A model generated the notes under the pieces. It worked only from the letters and a program-made list of their open reading frames with translations. It did no database searches and was not told the origin of the DNA. The position numbers were made by a program, and so were the translations under genes. This document shows positions 40,020 through 47,801 of a stretch of DNA of 64,000 nt, piece by piece. This stretch comes from a bacterium endosymbiont of Escarpia laminata (GTDB taxonomy: Bacteria > Pseudomonadota > Gammaproteobacteria > Chromatiales > Chromatiaceae). How positions within the stretch are numbered: the stretch's first letter is position 1; every line of letters begins with the position of its first letter. The DNA lies in assembly GCA_003660235.1 (NCBI GenBank), contig QGON01000069.1, forward strand, positions 186,001-250,000, given 5' to 3'.

Positions 40020-40095
40020 GCGGGAATAGCTCAGCTGGTAGAGCACAACCTTGCCAAGGTTGGGGTCGCGAGTTCGAATCTCGTTTCCCGCTCCA
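40020..40095 (+). tRNA. tRNA-Gly (anticodon GCC)
   Basis: A 76-nt cloverleaf: acceptor GCGGGAA / TTCCCGC, D-arm GCTC..GAGC, anticodon loop with GCC in CCTTGCCAAGG, T-arm CGCGAG TTCGAAT CTCG, discriminator T and encoded CCA. It is followed by its own terminator, then tRNA-Cys. Confidence 0.96.
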
Positions 40096-40104
40096 ATTTT
40101 AAAG

Positions 40105-40130
40105 AGCCTCGGCTAAACCGAGGCTTTTTT
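40105..40130 (+). terminator. Rho-independent terminator after tRNA-Gly
   Basis: Perfect stem AGCCTCGG / CCGAGGCT with a 5-nt loop, running into a T-run. Confidence 0.9.
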
Positions 40131-40177
40131 GTTTCAAGATCTGCGCCTAAATGGTGGTAGAATCTGAGCCTCTCATA

Positions 40178-40251
40178 GGCTGAGTGGCAGAGTGGTTATG
40201 CAGCGGCCTGCAAAGCCGTGAACCTCGGTTCGATTCCGGGCTCAGCCTCCA
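40178..40251 (+). tRNA. tRNA-Cys (anticodon GCA), probable island attachment site
   Basis: A 74-nt cloverleaf: acceptor GGCTGAG / CTCAGCC, anticodon loop with GCA in CGGCCTGCAAAGCCG, T-arm CTCGG TTCGATT CCGGG, discriminator T and encoded CCA. The last 51 nt are repeated with six mismatches at 49691-49741. All DNA after it in the window is accessory in character, which fits integration at this tRNA. Confidence 0.96.
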
Positions 40252-40540: not shown

Positions 40541-43127
40541 CTAATCAAGGAAAGTCCCGCTATCCTCTTCTCGGTATCCCATTGAGCGATATCCGACACG
40601 TCGTTTTCCATACATTCTCGCGAGCATGGGCACCTTGCTATCAACGTAGTCGACAATACGCACTTCGCGTTTGCCAGGATGTAGCCGGTGCAGTCGCCCA
40701 GCATATTGTACGAGGGTACCTTTCCACGAAACCGGTAGCGAAAGAAACAGGGTATCCAAGCGTGCATCATCAAATCCTTCACCGATGTATCTTCCGGTTG
40801 CCAGCAGTAGGCGCTCCTCTTCCATTGGAATAGAGGCGAGTTGTTCCTGGACTTTGCGCCGTTCTTTTGCAGACTGTCCTCCCTGTAGAACGACGATATG
40901 CCGGACAAAGCCTTTTAACCGTTGATGGAGATCCTCAAGGTGGTTTTTGCGTTCCGTCAGCAGGATCGGTGATCGACCTTCTTCCATAGCCAGCAGAACA
41001 TCATCAATGATCCGCTCGTTGCGTTTTTCATCGGCTATCAACAGGCTGTAGAGTTCTTGAATGGTTATATCGGATGCCTGCATGGGAGGCTCAAAGCCGG
41101 TTTCCCTAACTACAAGTCGATGTTCGAAGGGGCGTTGCGCTAACTGACTACGTGGATCGACCCTGAATCGAATCGGCCCGATCTGCATATGGGTGATGGG
41201 CTGGTGGCCGTCGCGGCGCTGCGGTGTGGCGGTCAACCCAACAACGTATCGTGCCTTTATCTCGGAGAGGACTCGTTCGAACGAAACAGCTGGCAGATGG
41301 TGGCATTGATGCACACCATCCATGGTGTGCCCCCTTCGGGCGCACTGAAGTGCGTCCAATTTCGCTCCCGGCGAAATTGTCGTCAATGATAACCTGCCCA
41401 TACTTGGCCACGATGTCGTCCATGGTCTCTTTTCGGGACAGGCTCTGGAGCATGGCCACGTCGATTTGCCCTGTCAGCTTGCGTTTCCCACCACCAATCT
41501 GACCGATTGATTTCGCATCGCGGTCAAGAAAGATGCCAATCTGCGATCTCCATTGTTCCAACAGCGGCTGTCTATGCACCAGGATCAAGGTGCTGCACAT
41601 TCGCGCAGCGATCAGGTAGGTTCCAAGGACGGTTTTCCCGAAACCAGGTGGCGCCACGATCACGCCGTTGTCGTGCCCGAGTATGGCTTTCGCTGCTTGG
41701 TGCTGGGCATCGGTCAATTCACCGAAGAAGCTAACATCCACGGGATCGCCGAGGCTTCTCAGATCTTCCACCTCAAGGTGGCTTTTGTATTCCTGGAGCA
41801 ATGCCTGTACGTCGTCGAGACACCCTCGCGGCAGACTGATGTGCTTTCCATGATCTTCGGCGCAGGAGATTACTCGGGGAGTCAGTGCCGTGGAAAGTCG
41901 AAGATTTTGTTTCTTGTAGAATTCTGGGTTCTGGAATGCGGCAAACCGTTGGATCTGATTGATCAAGGGCGACGGTAGGCCGGCTTTCTCGATGTAAAGA
42001 CGTTGGGATAAAATACCTCGAACCTGGTGTGGGATGGGATCGGTGATCGGAATACGCTTCGGTTTTCGGGAAGGTGGCCTCAGCCATGGGCTGGCATCAT
42101 CAACATCCTCCTCGGTAATGGCAATCTGAAGACCAGTCACCTGGCCACGTGTTGTGGCTTCCATGGTGATCTTTTCAACCTTCTCTACCTGAATCGGAAC
42201 AAGCGATGTGAGAAATTCCCACTGATCTGGAAATGGCTCCAGTTCGTCGTTCAGAAAGAGGGTATTGTTTTTCTGTCGCGGGTGATATTGAAGCGGGAGA
42301 GCGATGAGATTGCCGAAGCCACCATTGGGTAAGGTATCCTGGTTTGGGAAAAGCCGGTCATAGGACGCCATGCTGAGTTGATGTCGTCTGGCCATGGTTT
42401 CCGTAATCAGATAGCTACCCATCTTTCTTGCTATCGCTGCGGAAACAAGATTGCTGAAAAAGAACCAGACGTGTGCACCATTTCCAGAACGGGAACGTTC
42501 AATGGCATAAGGAACGCCTGCTCGCCGACAGGTTTCCGTAAAAGCCATAACGTCTTTACGCCAAGCTGCTTTGTCAAAATCGGCTGCGAGAAACCGGCAG
42601 GTATCGTCCTTCAGCATAGGGTATACGCCAATGATGTGACGTCCCTGGAGATGGTCCAGAATCACCTCGGTTGTTACCGGCAGGAAGGCCTGATTGGGGC
42701 ACTCACCGCATTTTACCCGGGGCTTCTCACATACTCCGCGAATCCACTCATTCGAACAGGCAGGCGAATAACCCTTCTTGCCCGTTTTTTGGTTCTGCCA
42801 CAATTTTGGATACACATCCTCTCGGCCTCGAAAGAGGCGGATAAAAAGGGCGATCTTCTCGTCTGGTGTTACGACTGCAGGGATGCAGGAGGTAGAGCAA
42901 TGCATGGAGCAATTGCCGAGATTTTCCTCTGTAGAAACGGGAGCTTCTGCTGGATGTTTTGGTTTGTGCGTTGTCTCCTTGTTATCTGGTGTCAGACGTC
43001 CTCTCAGCGATCTGAGTGTTGTCTCAGATTCTTCTTGCTGTTTTTGGAGACGGGTAATTTTCTGTTCGACTGCGGCGATTTTTCGCAGAATGATTTCGCG
43101 AGCAGAAATCTCCATAGTCAGGTCCAA
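40541..43127 (-). pseudogene. TOTE-type primase-helicase gene broken by a 73-nt insertion
   Basis: Two frames make one ~840-residue protein. The N-part (from 43127) has a coiled coil, a TOTE-type archaeo-eukaryotic primase domain with CEKPRVKCGECPNQ, FLAADFDKA (metal aspartates) and ERSRSGNGAHVWFFF, then a superfamily 2 helicase with VIVAPPGFGKTVLGTYL and VHRQPLLEQW. It runs to GQVIID and is then cut. The rest (CHHLPAVSFERVL, VGLTATPQRRDGH, YAGRLHRLHPGK) continues to 40541 in the next frame. The break is a 73-nt hairpin-rich insertion exactly between the codons for D-E and C-H-H of the DEAH-type box. Without it the two parts join in frame. Confidence 0.85.
41307..41379. mobile_element. 73-nt insertion made of consecutive hairpins
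   Basis: Within 73 nt lie four palindromes: GCACACCAT-CC-ATGGTGTGC, GCCC-CCTTC-GGGC, CGCACTGAAGTGCG and AATTTCGC-TCCCG-GCGAAATT. Removing it restores the helicase reading frame and the residues I-I-D-E-C-H-H. No ORF fits inside, so it would be mobilised in trans, or be a REP-like unit. No second copy is seen in this window. Confidence 0.75.
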
Positions 43128-43208: not shown

Positions 43209-44071
43209 TTATGTTGGCTGCATAAGAAATGTCTCGAGCAGATGGCAGACCTCCTCAATCGATGGGGGAGTGGAGGTGGTAAGCAGTATTCCCTTACTTA
43301 GAAACGCATTCCACTGCAGGTTTTTCTGCTTGTCATCGTAGAATGTTGAACTAAGGCCGGATGGTGTTTGTTTGGGTAAGGGCGTTTGGCGACGTGCAAA
43401 GGTGTTACGGACGGCTTCGGATAACGTGAGCCCGTTGAACTCAAACTGATGAGCCATTATCCAAAGGTCATAGAAGTCCTTCATCCGGCTGTTTGCCATA
43501 CCCAGGTTGACCAGAGCTTGGTATTTTTCGGCCACTACAGTTTCCCGCGGGTAGACCCTCAAGCGAGGCGTCGGATATTCCAGTAGTGTGGGATACTCAA
43601 CCTCTTCCGGTTCAGGCGTTACGGCGTCGCCGAACCCAATATCAGCCTGGATTGGGATGCGGGCACCGGCCAGCTCACCGAGCAGTACCACGCGTGTGCC
43701 ACCGTATTCAGTCGCATCGCGGATCGATTCAACTCTAACGCTGTCAGCAAGGAATACCAAACCGTCATCCTCAACAGGGAGGTCGCACAAGTTGCGAAAG
43801 ATTTCTCGTAGTGCCGCTTCTCCGCTGTCGCCGAATCCGAGGAAGTCTACATCGCGGGTTGGGCGATGCATCTGGTCGTCCCACAGGGTGAAAAGCATTG
43901 CGTCCTTCAGTATGAGCGATTGCGGTACTCCGATTGGCTCAGCCGGTACAAAAGTCGTTCCAGCCCATAGCGGGTCAGGATCAACTGGAACTCCTCACCT
44001 CGCTGCCTTGCCAGTTCGAGCAACCGGTCCCGCACTGAGGCCGCAGTGTTCCTCCCCTGTTTACCTATCAT
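43209..44071 (-). pseudogene. AbiEii-type nucleotidyltransferase toxin gene with frameshift
   Basis: The N-terminus (from ATG 44071: KQGRNTAASVRDRLLELARQ ... LERLLYRLSQSEYRNR) ends at a stop at 43907. The rest (LKDAMLFTLWDDQMHRPTRDVDFLGFGDS ... RMKDFYDLWIMAHQFEF) is in another frame to 43209. Families read RFILKGAMLF across this point; one base is missing near 43915. The TRDVDFL motif carries the nucleotidyltransferase metal aspartates. In AbiE systems this is the toxin, restrained by AbiEi. The start overlaps the AbiEi stop by 4 nt. Loss may be real or an indel error. Confidence 0.83.
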
Positions 44072-44676
44072 GTCGCAAGCGATCCCAGATAGGGTCGCAT
44101 GACGTTCTGAACACGGCAAACCTTAGCGTATTGCCAGAGGTCATCCATAGTGCAGCGCCGCGACCGCCAGCATTCCCTGAGTGCCTCGATGGAAACATCC
44201 AGCCCAATTTTATTTCGATACTTGAAGCAATCGGCCACAGTCTTTGCTGGTGTGAATACGGGTACGATTACCCCCTCAATCCGGTGTTCCTCCACGCCGG
44301 CATCGAGCGCTGCCGAAGAGAAACGGACAATACGTAGAGGAGGGTACTCCACACGTGGCCGCCAGGCCTTCCCACTAATGGCCAGCCAAACTTCGAAGGG
44401 CGACTGTGTAGTGAGTTCGTGAAAACGCAGGGCGGATAGGAGGCAGATTACTCCTTTCGGTACGCGTTTACAGACCTCGGCCAGAGAGCGGTGCTCGCTT
44501 ACGTTGGTACCGGGAAGCACATAGAGTCCCCGGCCGATTCGTTGCAGCTTACCGGCTGCGTGGAGTCTACTGAGATAGATCCGTGGGATGCCGTAAGGAT
44601 CGAGGTCCCGGGGACGCAGAACCCCTTCCTTTTGTACCAGTTCCAGCACCTTGTCTGTCTGAGTCGTTTGAGTCAT
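44068..44676 (-). CDS. AbiEi-like antitoxin with N-terminal winged helix
   Basis: 202 residues. N-terminal winged-helix domain (VLELVQKEGVLRPRDLDPYGIPRIYLSRLHAAGKLQRIGRGLYVLPG) followed by the AbiEi C-terminal domain (CLLSALRFHELTTQSPFEVWLAI, PVFTPAKTVADCFKYRNKIGLDVSIEALREC). AbiEi proteins are transcriptional autorepressors and antitoxins of type IV abortive-infection systems. Upstream partner of the frameshifted AbiEii gene. It appears intact. Confidence 0.9.
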   Translation of the reverse strand: MTQTTQTDKVLELVQKEGVLRPRDLDPYGIPRIYLSRLHAAGKLQRIGRGLYVLPGTNVSEHRSLAEVCKRVPKGVICLLSALRFHELTTQSPFEVWLAISGKAWRPRVEYPPLRIVRFSSAALDAGVEEHRIEGVIVPVFTPAKTVADCFKYRNKIGLDVSIEALRECWRSRRCTMDDLWQYAKVCRVQNVMRPYLGSLAT

Positions 44677-44789
44677 TAGGTATGAATGTTACATTACATA
44701 GGAAAAAGTATACAAGTTCCGAGGAATTAGAACGCAAGCTGGTAGAAAGATCGGGTATGGTCATCGGTATAGTTTTTAGGAGTTAAAGT

Positions 44790-44921
44790 TTAACTACTCT
44801 TCTCCGGTGCCAGCGCAGAGGCATTCAGCTCGAAATCTTCATGCCTGCTGAGGCGGCAGCGTCGTTTGGCCTCGACCCACTGTTGATCCTTGTTAGAACC
44901 CTGTCGTTTCGATTTGGCCAC
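44790..44921 (-). CDS. Possible 43-residue ORF downstream of the SNF2 helicase
   Basis: A GTG-started frame encodes a basic peptide MAKSKRQGSNKDQQWVEAKR... ending ALAPEKSS. It is not recognised and could be a gene remnant. The flanking arms AAACGAAACT (44965-44974) and AGTTTCGTTT (45005-45014) form an inverted repeat just past the helicase stop. Confidence 0.3.
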   Translation of the reverse strand: MAKSKRQGSNKDQQWVEAKRRCRLSRHEDFELNASALAPEKSS

Positions 44922-45017
44922 GGGTGTTTTCCCGGTAAAGCTGAGTTGAGCAGCTCGTCTTCTCAAACGAAACTTATACCCGGAGGGTGTAAGTACTGAG
45001 TGTCAGTTTCGTTTAGT

Positions 45018-47801
45018 CTACTCCAGGAGAGAAGTAGCCTGGGAAAGAAGGTCGTCGCTTTGTTTGATTAGTTTACCCGCTTGAGCTTCATCCATCTCGG
45101 GTTGATCCTCTCGCAGATGGGTGAGCAGAGACAAAGTTTCGGCTGGCAACAGGTTCGCCTGTACCAGCCTTGACTCGATCAGTTCCTGAGCCGGCGTTTT
45201 TTCAGTATCGTGTCCCCGCCAAAAGAGCAGGGCGTGCAAGGCCGTCTCCACGGCATCACGCATCGGGACGAGAGCTTCTGTTGAAAAGCCGCCTTCGGTG
45301 AGCACTTTCGCCATTCGCCGTTTATGTTCACTCTGGGCCAGGCGGTTGCGGGCCTCGGTCAGATGTTTTGATTGTTCGTCATCTTTTGGCTTATCCTCGG
45401 CCGGGGCGCGGTACACCGTTCTGACTGTATCCTGGTTGGTGTTCAAGACGCCGGCCTCGATCAGCTGCTGAATGGTTGCAAAGGAATCCCGGTCCAGCAA
45501 TTTCAATTGTGGCGTCTGCTCGGGGAACCGTTCTTGCAATTGCCGGGTAAGGGAACCCTGCAGAGCATCGCTCAGCCGGTCTGCCACCACCAGCAGAGTC
45601 TGCTGTGCTCCCTCGCCGTGCAGTTCCATCAGTTCCAGATGATGGCTCCACTGTGAAAGAATATCGTCCCGCAGACGATCGAGCGGATCGGTGGGTGGCA
45701 TTTGTGGTTCTTTTGACTCACCCACTATCAGGGTATCGATTCGCTCCAAAAAAGCGACTCGGCCGGAGGGGAGGTCCATTTCATTTTTGCCTTTACCATC
45801 CACTACGCCTTCGGCCAGGGAACGCTTCTGCTCCAGCAGAGAGAGCATGCGGTGTTCGATGGAGCCTTCAGATACAAGATTGATTACCTGCACCGGGCGT
45901 TTCTGGTGCTTTCGCCAGGCACGGGCGATGCGCTGCTCCAGTTTTGCCGGATTCCATGGCATATCCAGGTTGATCACTACATCGGCCACCTGCAGGTTGA
46001 GTCCTACGGAGCCTGAGTCGGTGGAGAGGAATAGTCGACACTCGGGATCGTCCTTGAAACGCCGGATCTCGTCACGGCGTTTTGGCTGCGGGATCTTGCC
46101 GGTATGTAAAGCGTAGCCCAGCCCCATCTCCTCGGCCTGCTCCCGGACCAACTGCAACATACGCTCCCACTCCGAAAAGATAATGATCTTGTGGTCACCA
46201 TCCTCCATGATTTCCTGGAGGATGTTGCCAAGCTCCTTCAGCTTGGGTGAGATGCGGCAATTTTGATCCAGAATATAGGGCGTGTCACAGAGCATACGCA
46301 TGCAGGCCAGATAAAGTTGGAGCTGTTCCATCTCCTCTTTTTTCAGTGGCCGCTTTTTGGCCGTAGCGGCAAGACGCGCCACTCTCGACTCGTACTCCCC
46401 GTAGCGCAGCACCTGCTCTTTGTGCATGGGGACGAAATAGGTGTTTATCGTGCGGCCTGGCAGCTGCCCCTCTACCTCCTCTTTACGTCGGCGCAGCATG
46501 ATGGGCTGCAGCTTTTTATGCAGCTGATTGAGGTTCCTGTAGCCAATGGCGCGCCCTTTCTCATCCAGTTTGTAGAAGTCACGGTTGAAGCGGAACAGAG
46601 GGCCGAAGATATGTGGATCCAGGAACTGAACGATCGAATAGATTTCGTCAATGCGGTTCTCTATCGGTGTGCCGGTAAGTACAAAAGCGTAGGGGCTTTT
46701 CAGGCGCTTGATTGAGATCGCTGTCTTGGTTTGCCAATTCTTGATGCGCTGAGCCTCATCCAGAATGATGACATCCGGGGCCAGGATGGTATTGATTTCC
46801 TCTGTATCTGACCGAACCTGTTCGTAGCTGGCAAGTGAGAAGAATGCAGGGTCTTCGTATTGGCGCAGACGCTTGGCACGCGTCCCCTGGATAATGCTTG
46901 AAGGCAGGCTGGTGAATTTGTCGATCTGTTCCTCCCATTCGCCCTTGAGCGAAGCGGGGGAGATCACCAATATTCGCCGGATGCCCCAGGTACGGCGCAG
47001 CAGCTCACAGGCGGCGATTGCCTGCACCGTTTTGCCCAGGCCCATCTCGTCCGCCAGCAGAGCACGGCCGGTGAATGCCAGGTGCAGCATGCCCTCCTGC
47101 TGGTATGGGTAGAGAGGGTGCTTGACAAGATCGAGGCTCGCATTTCCTGCTGCTACCTCAGTCTCAAAGTGTTGGCGGCTGCGGATCTGTTGCGCGTGCC
47201 GGTCCAGTGTATCGAGCCAGGTATTCAACTCATGTGACCACCGGATCCTGCGCCTGACAGCTGGGTGAGAGGTGTTAATTGCCCGTTGCATGGCAGGCAG
47301 TGTGTCGAGGGGATTATCCGCCAGGATGCTGTCGCTGGAAAAGAAGGGGGTGATGAGACCCCGAGCCTTGGAACGGCGATGTCCGCCTTCTGGCCAGCGT
47401 ATCCGGACTTGGTGGTCCCGCCGGTCCAGAAAGATTTCGATGTATGGACTGCCTTTGGCTGCTGCATTCTGGAAAGCGCGCTTGCGCCTGTACTGGAGCC
47501 TGTTCAGCGTTGCCTCGATATGCTTACAGGTGCCCAGGCCATTGATACGGTGGTCGGGGCAGTCGCAGCTATTGATGGGTTCTACAAGTGAACGAATCTC
47601 TACACGATAAGTTTGCTCGTTGTTGGAGTCGACCTGATAGACACCGAAAAAGTTATCGTCCTGCGCCTGGGATTCAATCCGTGATGGTTCATTCAGACCG
47701 CGCAAACGACGGCGTTCGATCTCATCGGCGTCACTGGTTGACCAGCCTGATGGTCGAACCAGTCTTTGGGAATTTTTATTACGTTTCTTTGTTTTCGACA
47801 T
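45018..47801 (-). CDS. SWIM zinc finger SNF2-family helicase
   Basis: 927 residues. A SWIM-type zinc finger near residues 79-94 (C79xC81 ... C92xH94 in SCDCPDHRINGLGTCKH) precedes a Swi2/Snf2 ATPase: Walker A DEMGLGKTVQA (251-261), DEAQRIKNW, TGTPIENRIDEI, STDSGSVGLNLQVADVVINLDMPWNPAKLEQRIARAWR. The tail of about 250 residues is helical. Such helicases translocate on dsDNA and occur in defence islands (for example beside restriction or DISARM-like genes). It is the largest intact gene of the 40-50 kb island. No nuclease or methylase partner is next to it. Confidence 0.92.
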   Translation of the reverse strand: MSKTKKRNKNSQRLVRPSGWSTSDADEIERRRLRGLNEPSRIESQAQDDNFFGVYQVDSNNEQTYRVEIRSLVEPINSCDCPDHRINGLGTCKHIEATLNRLQYRRKRAFQNAAAKGSPYIEIFLDRRDHQVRIRWPEGGHRRSKARGLITPFFSSDSILADNPLDTLPAMQRAINTSHPAVRRRIRWSHELNTWLDTLDRHAQQIRSRQHFETEVAAGNASLDLVKHPLYPYQQEGMLHLAFTGRALLADEMGLGKTVQAIAACELLRRTWGIRRILVISPASLKGEWEEQIDKFTSLPSSIIQGTRAKRLRQYEDPAFFSLASYEQVRSDTEEINTILAPDVIILDEAQRIKNWQTKTAISIKRLKSPYAFVLTGTPIENRIDEIYSIVQFLDPHIFGPLFRFNRDFYKLDEKGRAIGYRNLNQLHKKLQPIMLRRRKEEVEGQLPGRTINTYFVPMHKEQVLRYGEYESRVARLAATAKKRPLKKEEMEQLQLYLACMRMLCDTPYILDQNCRISPKLKELGNILQEIMEDGDHKIIIFSEWERMLQLVREQAEEMGLGYALHTGKIPQPKRRDEIRRFKDDPECRLFLSTDSGSVGLNLQVADVVINLDMPWNPAKLEQRIARAWRKHQKRPVQVINLVSEGSIEHRMLSLLEQKRSLAEGVVDGKGKNEMDLPSGRVAFLERIDTLIVGESKEPQMPPTDPLDRLRDDILSQWSHHLELMELHGEGAQQTLLVVADRLSDALQGSLTRQLQERFPEQTPQLKLLDRDSFATIQQLIEAGVLNTNQDTVRTVYRAPAEDKPKDDEQSKHLTEARNRLAQSEHKRRMAKVLTEGGFSTEALVPMRDAVETALHALLFWRGHDTEKTPAQELIESRLVQANLLPAETLSLLTHLREDQPEMDEAQAGKLIKQSDDLLSQATSLLE

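Follow-up and report, generated by a model that had tools for sequence, protein, structure and literature searches.

The window analysed here, 64,000 nt of contig QGON01000069.1 (positions 186,001 to 250,000) from the bacterial endosymbiont of Escarpia laminata, contains a primase-helicase gene of the TOTE type (43127-40541, minus strand) that is interrupted in its helicase motif II by 73 nt of hairpin-forming DNA. What is this insert, how could it have arrived there, and does the gene still work? The insert, named E hereafter, has relatives of the same architecture dispersed over many genomes, in tRNA tails, in other palindromes and within genes. It is one copy of a large family of four-hairpin DNA repeats of about 72-76 nt, probably non-autonomous and resembling the repetitive extragenic palindromic (REP) sequences and the Rickettsia palindromic elements (RPE).

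The insert in the TOTE gene and its empty site

E lies at 41307..41379 on the minus strand, where it reads CAATTTCGCC...GTGCATCA, the ends being ambiguous by 1 nt (A). These boundaries are based on the empty sites of two related genomes and on the match of a covariance model of E, called R1 (41306-41382, 89.7 bits). On the minus strand the insert consists of four hairpins: H1 (41357..41379), with 9 bp and a GGA-containing loop (CCGGGAG); H2 (41341..41354), CGCAC UUCA GUGCG, which is variable across the family; H3 (41332..41340), CCCGAAGGG; and H4 (41311..41330), with 9 bp and the loop CAUGGAUG, of the CANGGANG type. A preliminary description had reported a 73-nt insert of four palindromes, and both its coordinates and its arms match: arms of 9 bp are perfect at 41311-41319/41322-41330 and 41357-41365/41371-41379, those at 41338-41346/41349-41357 are 89% complementary, and the fourth palindrome is CCC(GAA)GGG. 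The gene-strand fold of a 93-nt stretch with E reaches -40.1 kcal/mol, compared with -25.35 +/- 3.19 for 200 shuffles, none of which was as low (z -4.62). The whole window has 15 perfect hairpins of at least 8 bp with a loop of at most 8, two of them within E. A tRNA-like cloverleaf is incompatible with the fold, and ARAGORN calls no tRNA at 41150-41550.

The gene had been described as a primase-helicase, and Pfam domains bear this out. The upstream piece (41380..43127, minus strand) carries the AEP-TOTE primase domain (8.7e-100) and the first part of ResIII (4.5e-12), up to the Asp-(Glu) of motif II. The downstream piece (40541..41306, minus strand) runs from the Cys-His-His of motif II to the C-terminus, with the end of ResIII (profile positions 134-164) and Helicase_C (2.4e-05). 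Two details had to be corrected. The split had been placed cleanly between the Asp-Glu and the Cys-His-His codons; E cuts motif II (D-E-CHH) within the Glu codon, GA^A. It had also been said to have no coding capacity, which is not quite right: the upstream and downstream reading frames are both open across the window copy, and an ATG inside H4 (41321-41323) is in frame with the downstream piece, giving an open reading frame at 40541-41401.

Two genomes of the same genus (G004 and G005) have the site uninterrupted, reading ATCATCGATGAATGCCACCATC, so that the empty orthologous sites which had been proposed as a sign of mobility are present. A third, the Escarpia spicata symbiont (G002), has a 98% identical E at the identical motif II site. 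Since the site is empty in two genomes and filled in two separately sequenced ones, that of the window (G000) and G002, E is a true insertion. The comparison of filled and empty sites leaves only the 1-nt (A) ambiguity, and a target duplication is thus of at most 1 nt.

A dispersed family with a preferred target

A plain DNA search of the window's own genome returned one full copy of E, the rest being 14-22-nt fragments (E-value 0.56 or worse). Absence of any other copy, or an assembly artefact, had been named as grounds for discarding the element; judged by plain similarity the first of these would have misfired. A structure-aware search gives two further copies in the same genome. Plain searches of plasmids (queries from the window and from another locus, L100) and of phages (L100 query) gave no E, the method being too insensitive. 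BLAST against relatives yielded distant, mainly partial matches, whose loci share one architecture: H1 with its GGA loop, H2, H3 CCCGAAGGG, H4 with a CANGGANG loop, then TCA. Among 15 E sequences, 12 of the 23 pairs were changed on both sides, and the covariation score was 0.388, compared with 0.113 in shuffles (0/500 as high) and 0.046-0.124 when slid.

With R1, used at an E-value of at most 0.01 for relatives and of at most 1e-4 for the class and phylum samples, matches were found in 27 of 55 relatives, in 111 of 274 sampled class genomes and in 49 of 200 phylum genomes. The two additional copies of the window's genome (contig C69, L122, 2067-2215) lie head to tail between tRNA-Tyr and tRNA-Gly, inside a palindromic duplicate of the tRNA-Tyr tail and near an apparent EF-Tu gene. 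Tandem copies (L232, L233) meet at ATCA|CAAATC, in agreement with the ends given by the empty site; copies with the same ends are what the preliminary description had expected of a family. Another genome has seven copies within 2 kb (L123, G288:C183, 1431-3356), by eye in the debris of an apparent group II intron reverse transcriptase.

To describe the sites, 193 matches were reduced to 175 used for flanks (18 repeated loci, further tandem copies and weak matches were dropped) and to 164 after removal of repeated flanks; the copies are not independent, their boundaries are derived from the model, and the training of R1 favours GA and GGA. E length peaks at 72 (51 sites) and 73 nt (37 sites). 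GGA was present in 154 of the 160 H1 loops scored and in 158 of 164 H4 loops, which are mostly CANGGANG, compared with 31/164 in positions 31-46 between the two. E is preceded by GA in 142 of the 164 sites and followed by A in 108; the preceding trinucleotide is CGA in 80 cases and TGA in 27. Rfam gave no match at threshold in the window, the best by E-value being sot0042 (16.2 bits against 88 required) and RsmY reaching 14.1 against 57, and 15 further E loci gave matches to tRNA and 5S rRNA alone. No description of the family was found in the open-access literature searched, subscription journals being mostly outside it; judged on this literature and on Rfam, the family is apparently undescribed.

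The sites are distributed over several contexts. Duplicated tRNA 3' tails, TTCGA^(A)TCC, account for 30 of the 164; of 32 loci picked for T-loop-like flanks, 30 contain a tRNA gene, which in 26 lies on the strand of E and has its end 33-231 nt upstream. In other cases the target is itself a palindrome: an apparent CGTC-type repeat CATTCCGGC..GCCGGA^ATCCAG (L149, L153), an apparent REP of the GTAG type (L147), or a CTTTCTTTG..CAAAGA hairpin, in both of its arms. Genes are also targets. E is in frame and stop-free in YqeY, UbiD and YgjP, with Pfam domains on both sides, and so are the sense copies in L090, where a PglZ domain is recognised on a single side, and in L144, L136 and L130; these last three loci are genes by open frame alone, and L130 has two copies and a protein with no Pfam match. 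Antisense E puts two stops in HsdM and carries stops in L113 and L123, where the open frames are unconfirmed as genes.

Several arrangements deserve separate mention. Downstream of tRNA genes (L012, L013, L112, L119, L126 and others) each duplicated 3' tail stands after a partial inverted copy (GGAGGGATGAGAACC...GGTTCGA^ATCCCTCC), and in places the tails recur every 140-180 nt; they are reminiscent of the tyrT/rtT repeats of E. coli. In one genome (G251, L105) E occupies a stop/start overlap (ATGA), and its 3' end ...CATGA rebuilds the start codon of the next gene. In G394 (L214-L221) an IS110-type element (about 1.46 kb, transposase confirmed) is present several times, beside the 5' ends of E and sometimes between two inverted E. 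This element was rejected as a carrier of E: in the fetched ends L217 has no left E and L219 no right E, so that E lies outside IS110, as its target. REPs serve as targets of insertion sequences as well (PMC1525189).

TOTE genes contain E repeatedly. Searching 84,980 species genomes for E placed at GA^ATGCCAC, a pattern conditioned on the motif II site and the TGCCAC codons, gave three records: the E. spicata symbiont, Stutzerimonas stutzeri CLN100 and a gammaproteobacterial metagenome-assembled genome (G364), the last first found unconditioned. E thus occurs at the same nucleotide in three lineages, tubeworm symbionts, S. stutzeri and an uncultured gammaproteobacterium. All three inserts are of 73 nt and shift the frame, with the upstream and downstream pieces open in each. 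Those of G000/G002 and S. stutzeri are mutually nearest (0.86-0.88; next, 0.82 in G000 and 0.815 in S. stutzeri) and that of G364 is distinct, its best match (0.79) being to another locus. In unconditioned surveys, which include some fragmentary TOTE loci, E was present in 3 of 29 loci of 23 related genomes (L038 and L039 at motif II; L063, where E lies antisense in another TOTE gene, whose frame it ends with a stop). Among 24 loci of 22 class genomes, three have E inside the gene (at motif II in G000 and G364; G251) and a fourth, in G361, has it alongside. A second codon, the Glu of SPACAN-E-W, holds an in-frame, stop-free E of 72 nt in G149, S. stutzeri and G251. The similarity of the three makes it likely that E entered once, long ago, and was passed on together with the gene. 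The two Glu codons share the form YGA^ATG(G/C). E was found in 16 of 22 genomes with TOTE and in 95 of 252 others (p 0.0024, no phylogeny correction); as 95 of the 111 E-positive genomes have no AEP-TOTE match, TOTE was rejected as the mover of E.

In the window the TOTE gene adjoins an AbiEii/AbiEi toxin-antitoxin pair (43209-43898, 44068-44676) and a SNF2-type helicase (45018-47801), the stretch 43209-47801 forming with it a small defence-type cluster beside tRNA-Gly and tRNA-Cys (40020-40251). In G361 (L239, G361:C6, 3268-3342), near another TOTE gene, E occupies an ATGA^A in which stop and start codons overlap; the protein encoded before it looks by eye like the AbiEi of the window.

Movement, alternatives and the fate of the split gene

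In the explanation that we favour, E copies would move in trans, plausibly as folded single-stranded DNA, by means of an enzyme that reads the hairpins. They enter after GA, preferably where A-(T/C)-C follows, and duplicate no target. A transposase of the HUH/Y1 type is the leading, unproven candidate. At the window locus E would have interrupted motif II of the helicase of a TOTE conflict system and shifted its frame; elsewhere, including the second TOTE codon, genes would tolerate E as 24-25 additional in-frame residues. We consider this account as a whole, in which a REP-like repeat mobilised in trans, probably in hairpin DNA form, knocked out a TOTE conflict gene, to be probable, though well short of assured. 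As E both breaks motif II and shifts the frame, the sequence indicates that an active helicase is most likely no longer made and that the gene has most likely lost its function. A hypothetical read-through product would have about 24 extra residues in its ATPase motif and require a frameshift.

A number of results weigh against this account. No enzyme is tied to E, and no gene is shown with E as its own ends. In the class sample Y1 (PF01797) and E co-occur only modestly: 83 genomes have both, 28 E only, 91 Y1 only and 72 neither (odds ratio 2.35, p 0.0014, no phylogeny correction). E has no GTAG tag. When the 4926 position-strand choices are scored with the 12-nt target preference derived from 161 other sites, the motif II site comes out only 55th-56th (41st and 47th if T-loop sites are left out), so that three lineages at one nucleotide are only partly explained by the target sequence. 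Between G000 and G002 both TOTE pieces (585+254 codons) are free of stops and indels, and the ratios of nonsynonymous to synonymous substitution rates (dN/dS), 0.205 and 0.079, are close to those of intact copies, as for a gene in use. Lastly, the low count of G-T pairs in the stems of E, discussed below, is common to a tRNA control.

The selection test is confounded by recombination. E lies within a block of about 650 nt that is more alike between G000 and G002 than the remainder, so the divergence of the two genomes may predate E. Within this block 4 of 10 codon differences are nonsynonymous, one of them an Ile to Thr change in G002 two codons before the Asp of motif II. A recent knock-out that recombination has spread accounts for these data no less well than a live gene does.

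Does E act as DNA or as RNA? In the H1 and H4 stems, 2096 of 2162 cells are Watson-Crick and the mismatches comprise 15 G-T and 16 A-C (160 H1 and 147 H4 of the 164 copies, preselected as nearly complete stems; 75/78 for the tRNA control). The tRNA acceptor stems of the same loci have 6 G-U and 0 A-C in 525 cells (p 0.027 against E); the control being low in G-T as well, only the ratio of G-T to A-C is informative. A selected RNA should favour G-U over A-C; small as they are, the numbers therefore give a hint of hairpin DNA or of palindrome correction. The conservation of GGA in the loops of one strand speaks against DNA, as CsrA sites would show the same.

GGA hairpin loops are binding sites of CsrA. 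E could accordingly be a mobile RNA device whose two GGA loops bind CsrA/RsmA, transcribed copies and tRNA-linked arrays serving as sponges or transplanted regulatory sites, a reading which we hold to be unlikely. In its favour are the near-constant GGA of both loops compared with the region between them, the location behind tRNA genes, which suggests transcription, and the phylum sample, where CsrA matches occur in 46 of 49 E-positive and 87 of 151 E-negative genomes. Within the class the association is absent (98/111 E-positive, 136/163 E-negative, p 0.30), which makes the reading weak, and 13 E-positive genomes, several of them incomplete, have no CsrA match. Moreover G-U is no commoner than A-C in the stems, and R1 was trained on GGA loops so that their conservation is partly built in.

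No better placed is the idea, to which we likewise give little credit, that a homing-like sub-lineage of E recognises the YGA^ATG(G/C) Glu codons of TOTE genes and can leave motif II at the DNA or RNA level, acting as a reversible switch on the conflict gene, with the wider family in tRNA tails, REPs and in-frame insertions.

Two further readings seem to us quite improbable. E might be intron-like or a bypass element, the split helicase being still made through removal from the mRNA, ribosome skipping or precise excision from DNA. Insertion at the identical nucleotide of the most conserved motif in three lineages recalls homing introns and inteins, and the shared 73-nt length, the open pieces and the low dN/dS of G000/G002 agree with it. 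Against it, Rfam gives no match, intron families included; the take-off and landing codons at the ends of E do not match by eye (upstream GAC GAC AAT, downstream CAT CAA TGC); in other genes and at N-E-W the element stays as in-frame coding sequence, for which removal is unneeded; and the nonsynonymous changes of the shared block include one next to motif II. Alternatively, the E loci might be non-mobile scars, in which quasi-palindrome correction keeps the hairpins perfect and which spread by recombination and horizontal transfer alone. Watson-Crick stems without a G-T preference are expected from template-switch correction. Also, 131 non-genic empty sites fold somewhat better than controls from the same loci (mean -26.4 vs -23.1 kcal/mol, p 1.4e-5), 14 of them beyond the 5% control tail, and the N-E-W copies look inherited. 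Yet a copying step is needed to explain why copies at unrelated sites, in many genera, keep their loops and have the same ends, and the empty site within the same genus is clean.

Comparison with known repeats

The regulatory RNAs CsrB and RsmX/Y/Z carry GGA hairpin loops, as E does. E differs from them in being below the Rfam thresholds, in showing no preference of G-U over A-C, and in being dispersed and often genic.

Miniature inverted-repeat transposable elements such as ERIC, NEMIS and Nezha (PMC3733652) share with E their size, their dispersal and the lack of a gene of their own. Their terminal inverted repeats (15-30 bp) and target duplication are absent from E, whose duplication is at most 1 nt and whose ends, C... 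and ...TCA, are not inverted repeats. E can be likened to the Rickettsia RPE, from the description in PMC3733652, by its in-frame, stop-free insertion in genes of a functional type: the YqeY, UbiD, YgjP and N-E-W copies are of this kind, and those at TOTE motif II and antisense in HsdM are not. RPE belong to another lineage and have another architecture, and the frame shift caused at motif II is unlike them.

The preliminary description had suggested a short mobile or REP-like element. The REP-like neighbourhood was right, and E is not a standard REP of either the GTAG or the CGTC type. GTAG REPs, with their REP-associated tyrosine transposases (RAYT), resemble E in being dispersed gammaproteobacterial hairpin repeats that form inverted pairs and are targets of insertion sequences (PMC2817692, PMC3733652). 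A GTAG REP is a single hairpin of 20-40 bp with the tetranucleotide GTAG unpaired at one end; E lacks this tag, most copies standing after GA, and has four hairpins in a modal length of 72-73 nt. No RAYT or Y1 gene flanked by E turned up, no search having been aimed at these. CGTC-tagged REPs, which include dRS3 of Neisseria and RPE-4 and RPE-6 of Rickettsia, have no known transposase (Di Nocera et al. 2013, PMC3733652). Like E they are short and palindromic, lie in both intergenic and intragenic regions and are in some cases nested in other palindromes, and their stem of 8-9 bp with a 5-nt loop resembles H1. They consist of a single 20-40-bp hairpin that has CGTC (or TGTC/CCTC) at one end of a stem starting with A-T pairs and a CCA tail (PMC3733652); E packs four hairpins into about 73 nt and inserts after GA. 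On the reverse strand of E, 51 of the 146 copies scored have CGTC within 5 nt of H1; C-G is the first stem pair in 12/14, and a CCA tail is absent.

This family can be mistaken for a gene, a regulatory RNA or a frameshift. Its threefold presence at motif II, together with the in-frame copies at a second TOTE codon, makes target choice versus selection directly testable, and its fixed ends, empty sites and target rule allow clean testing of the movement of repeats that have no known transposase. With no Rfam family and no description in the papers searched, a four-hairpin repeat found in about 40% of the class genomes sampled would be a major new class among the REP-like repeats.
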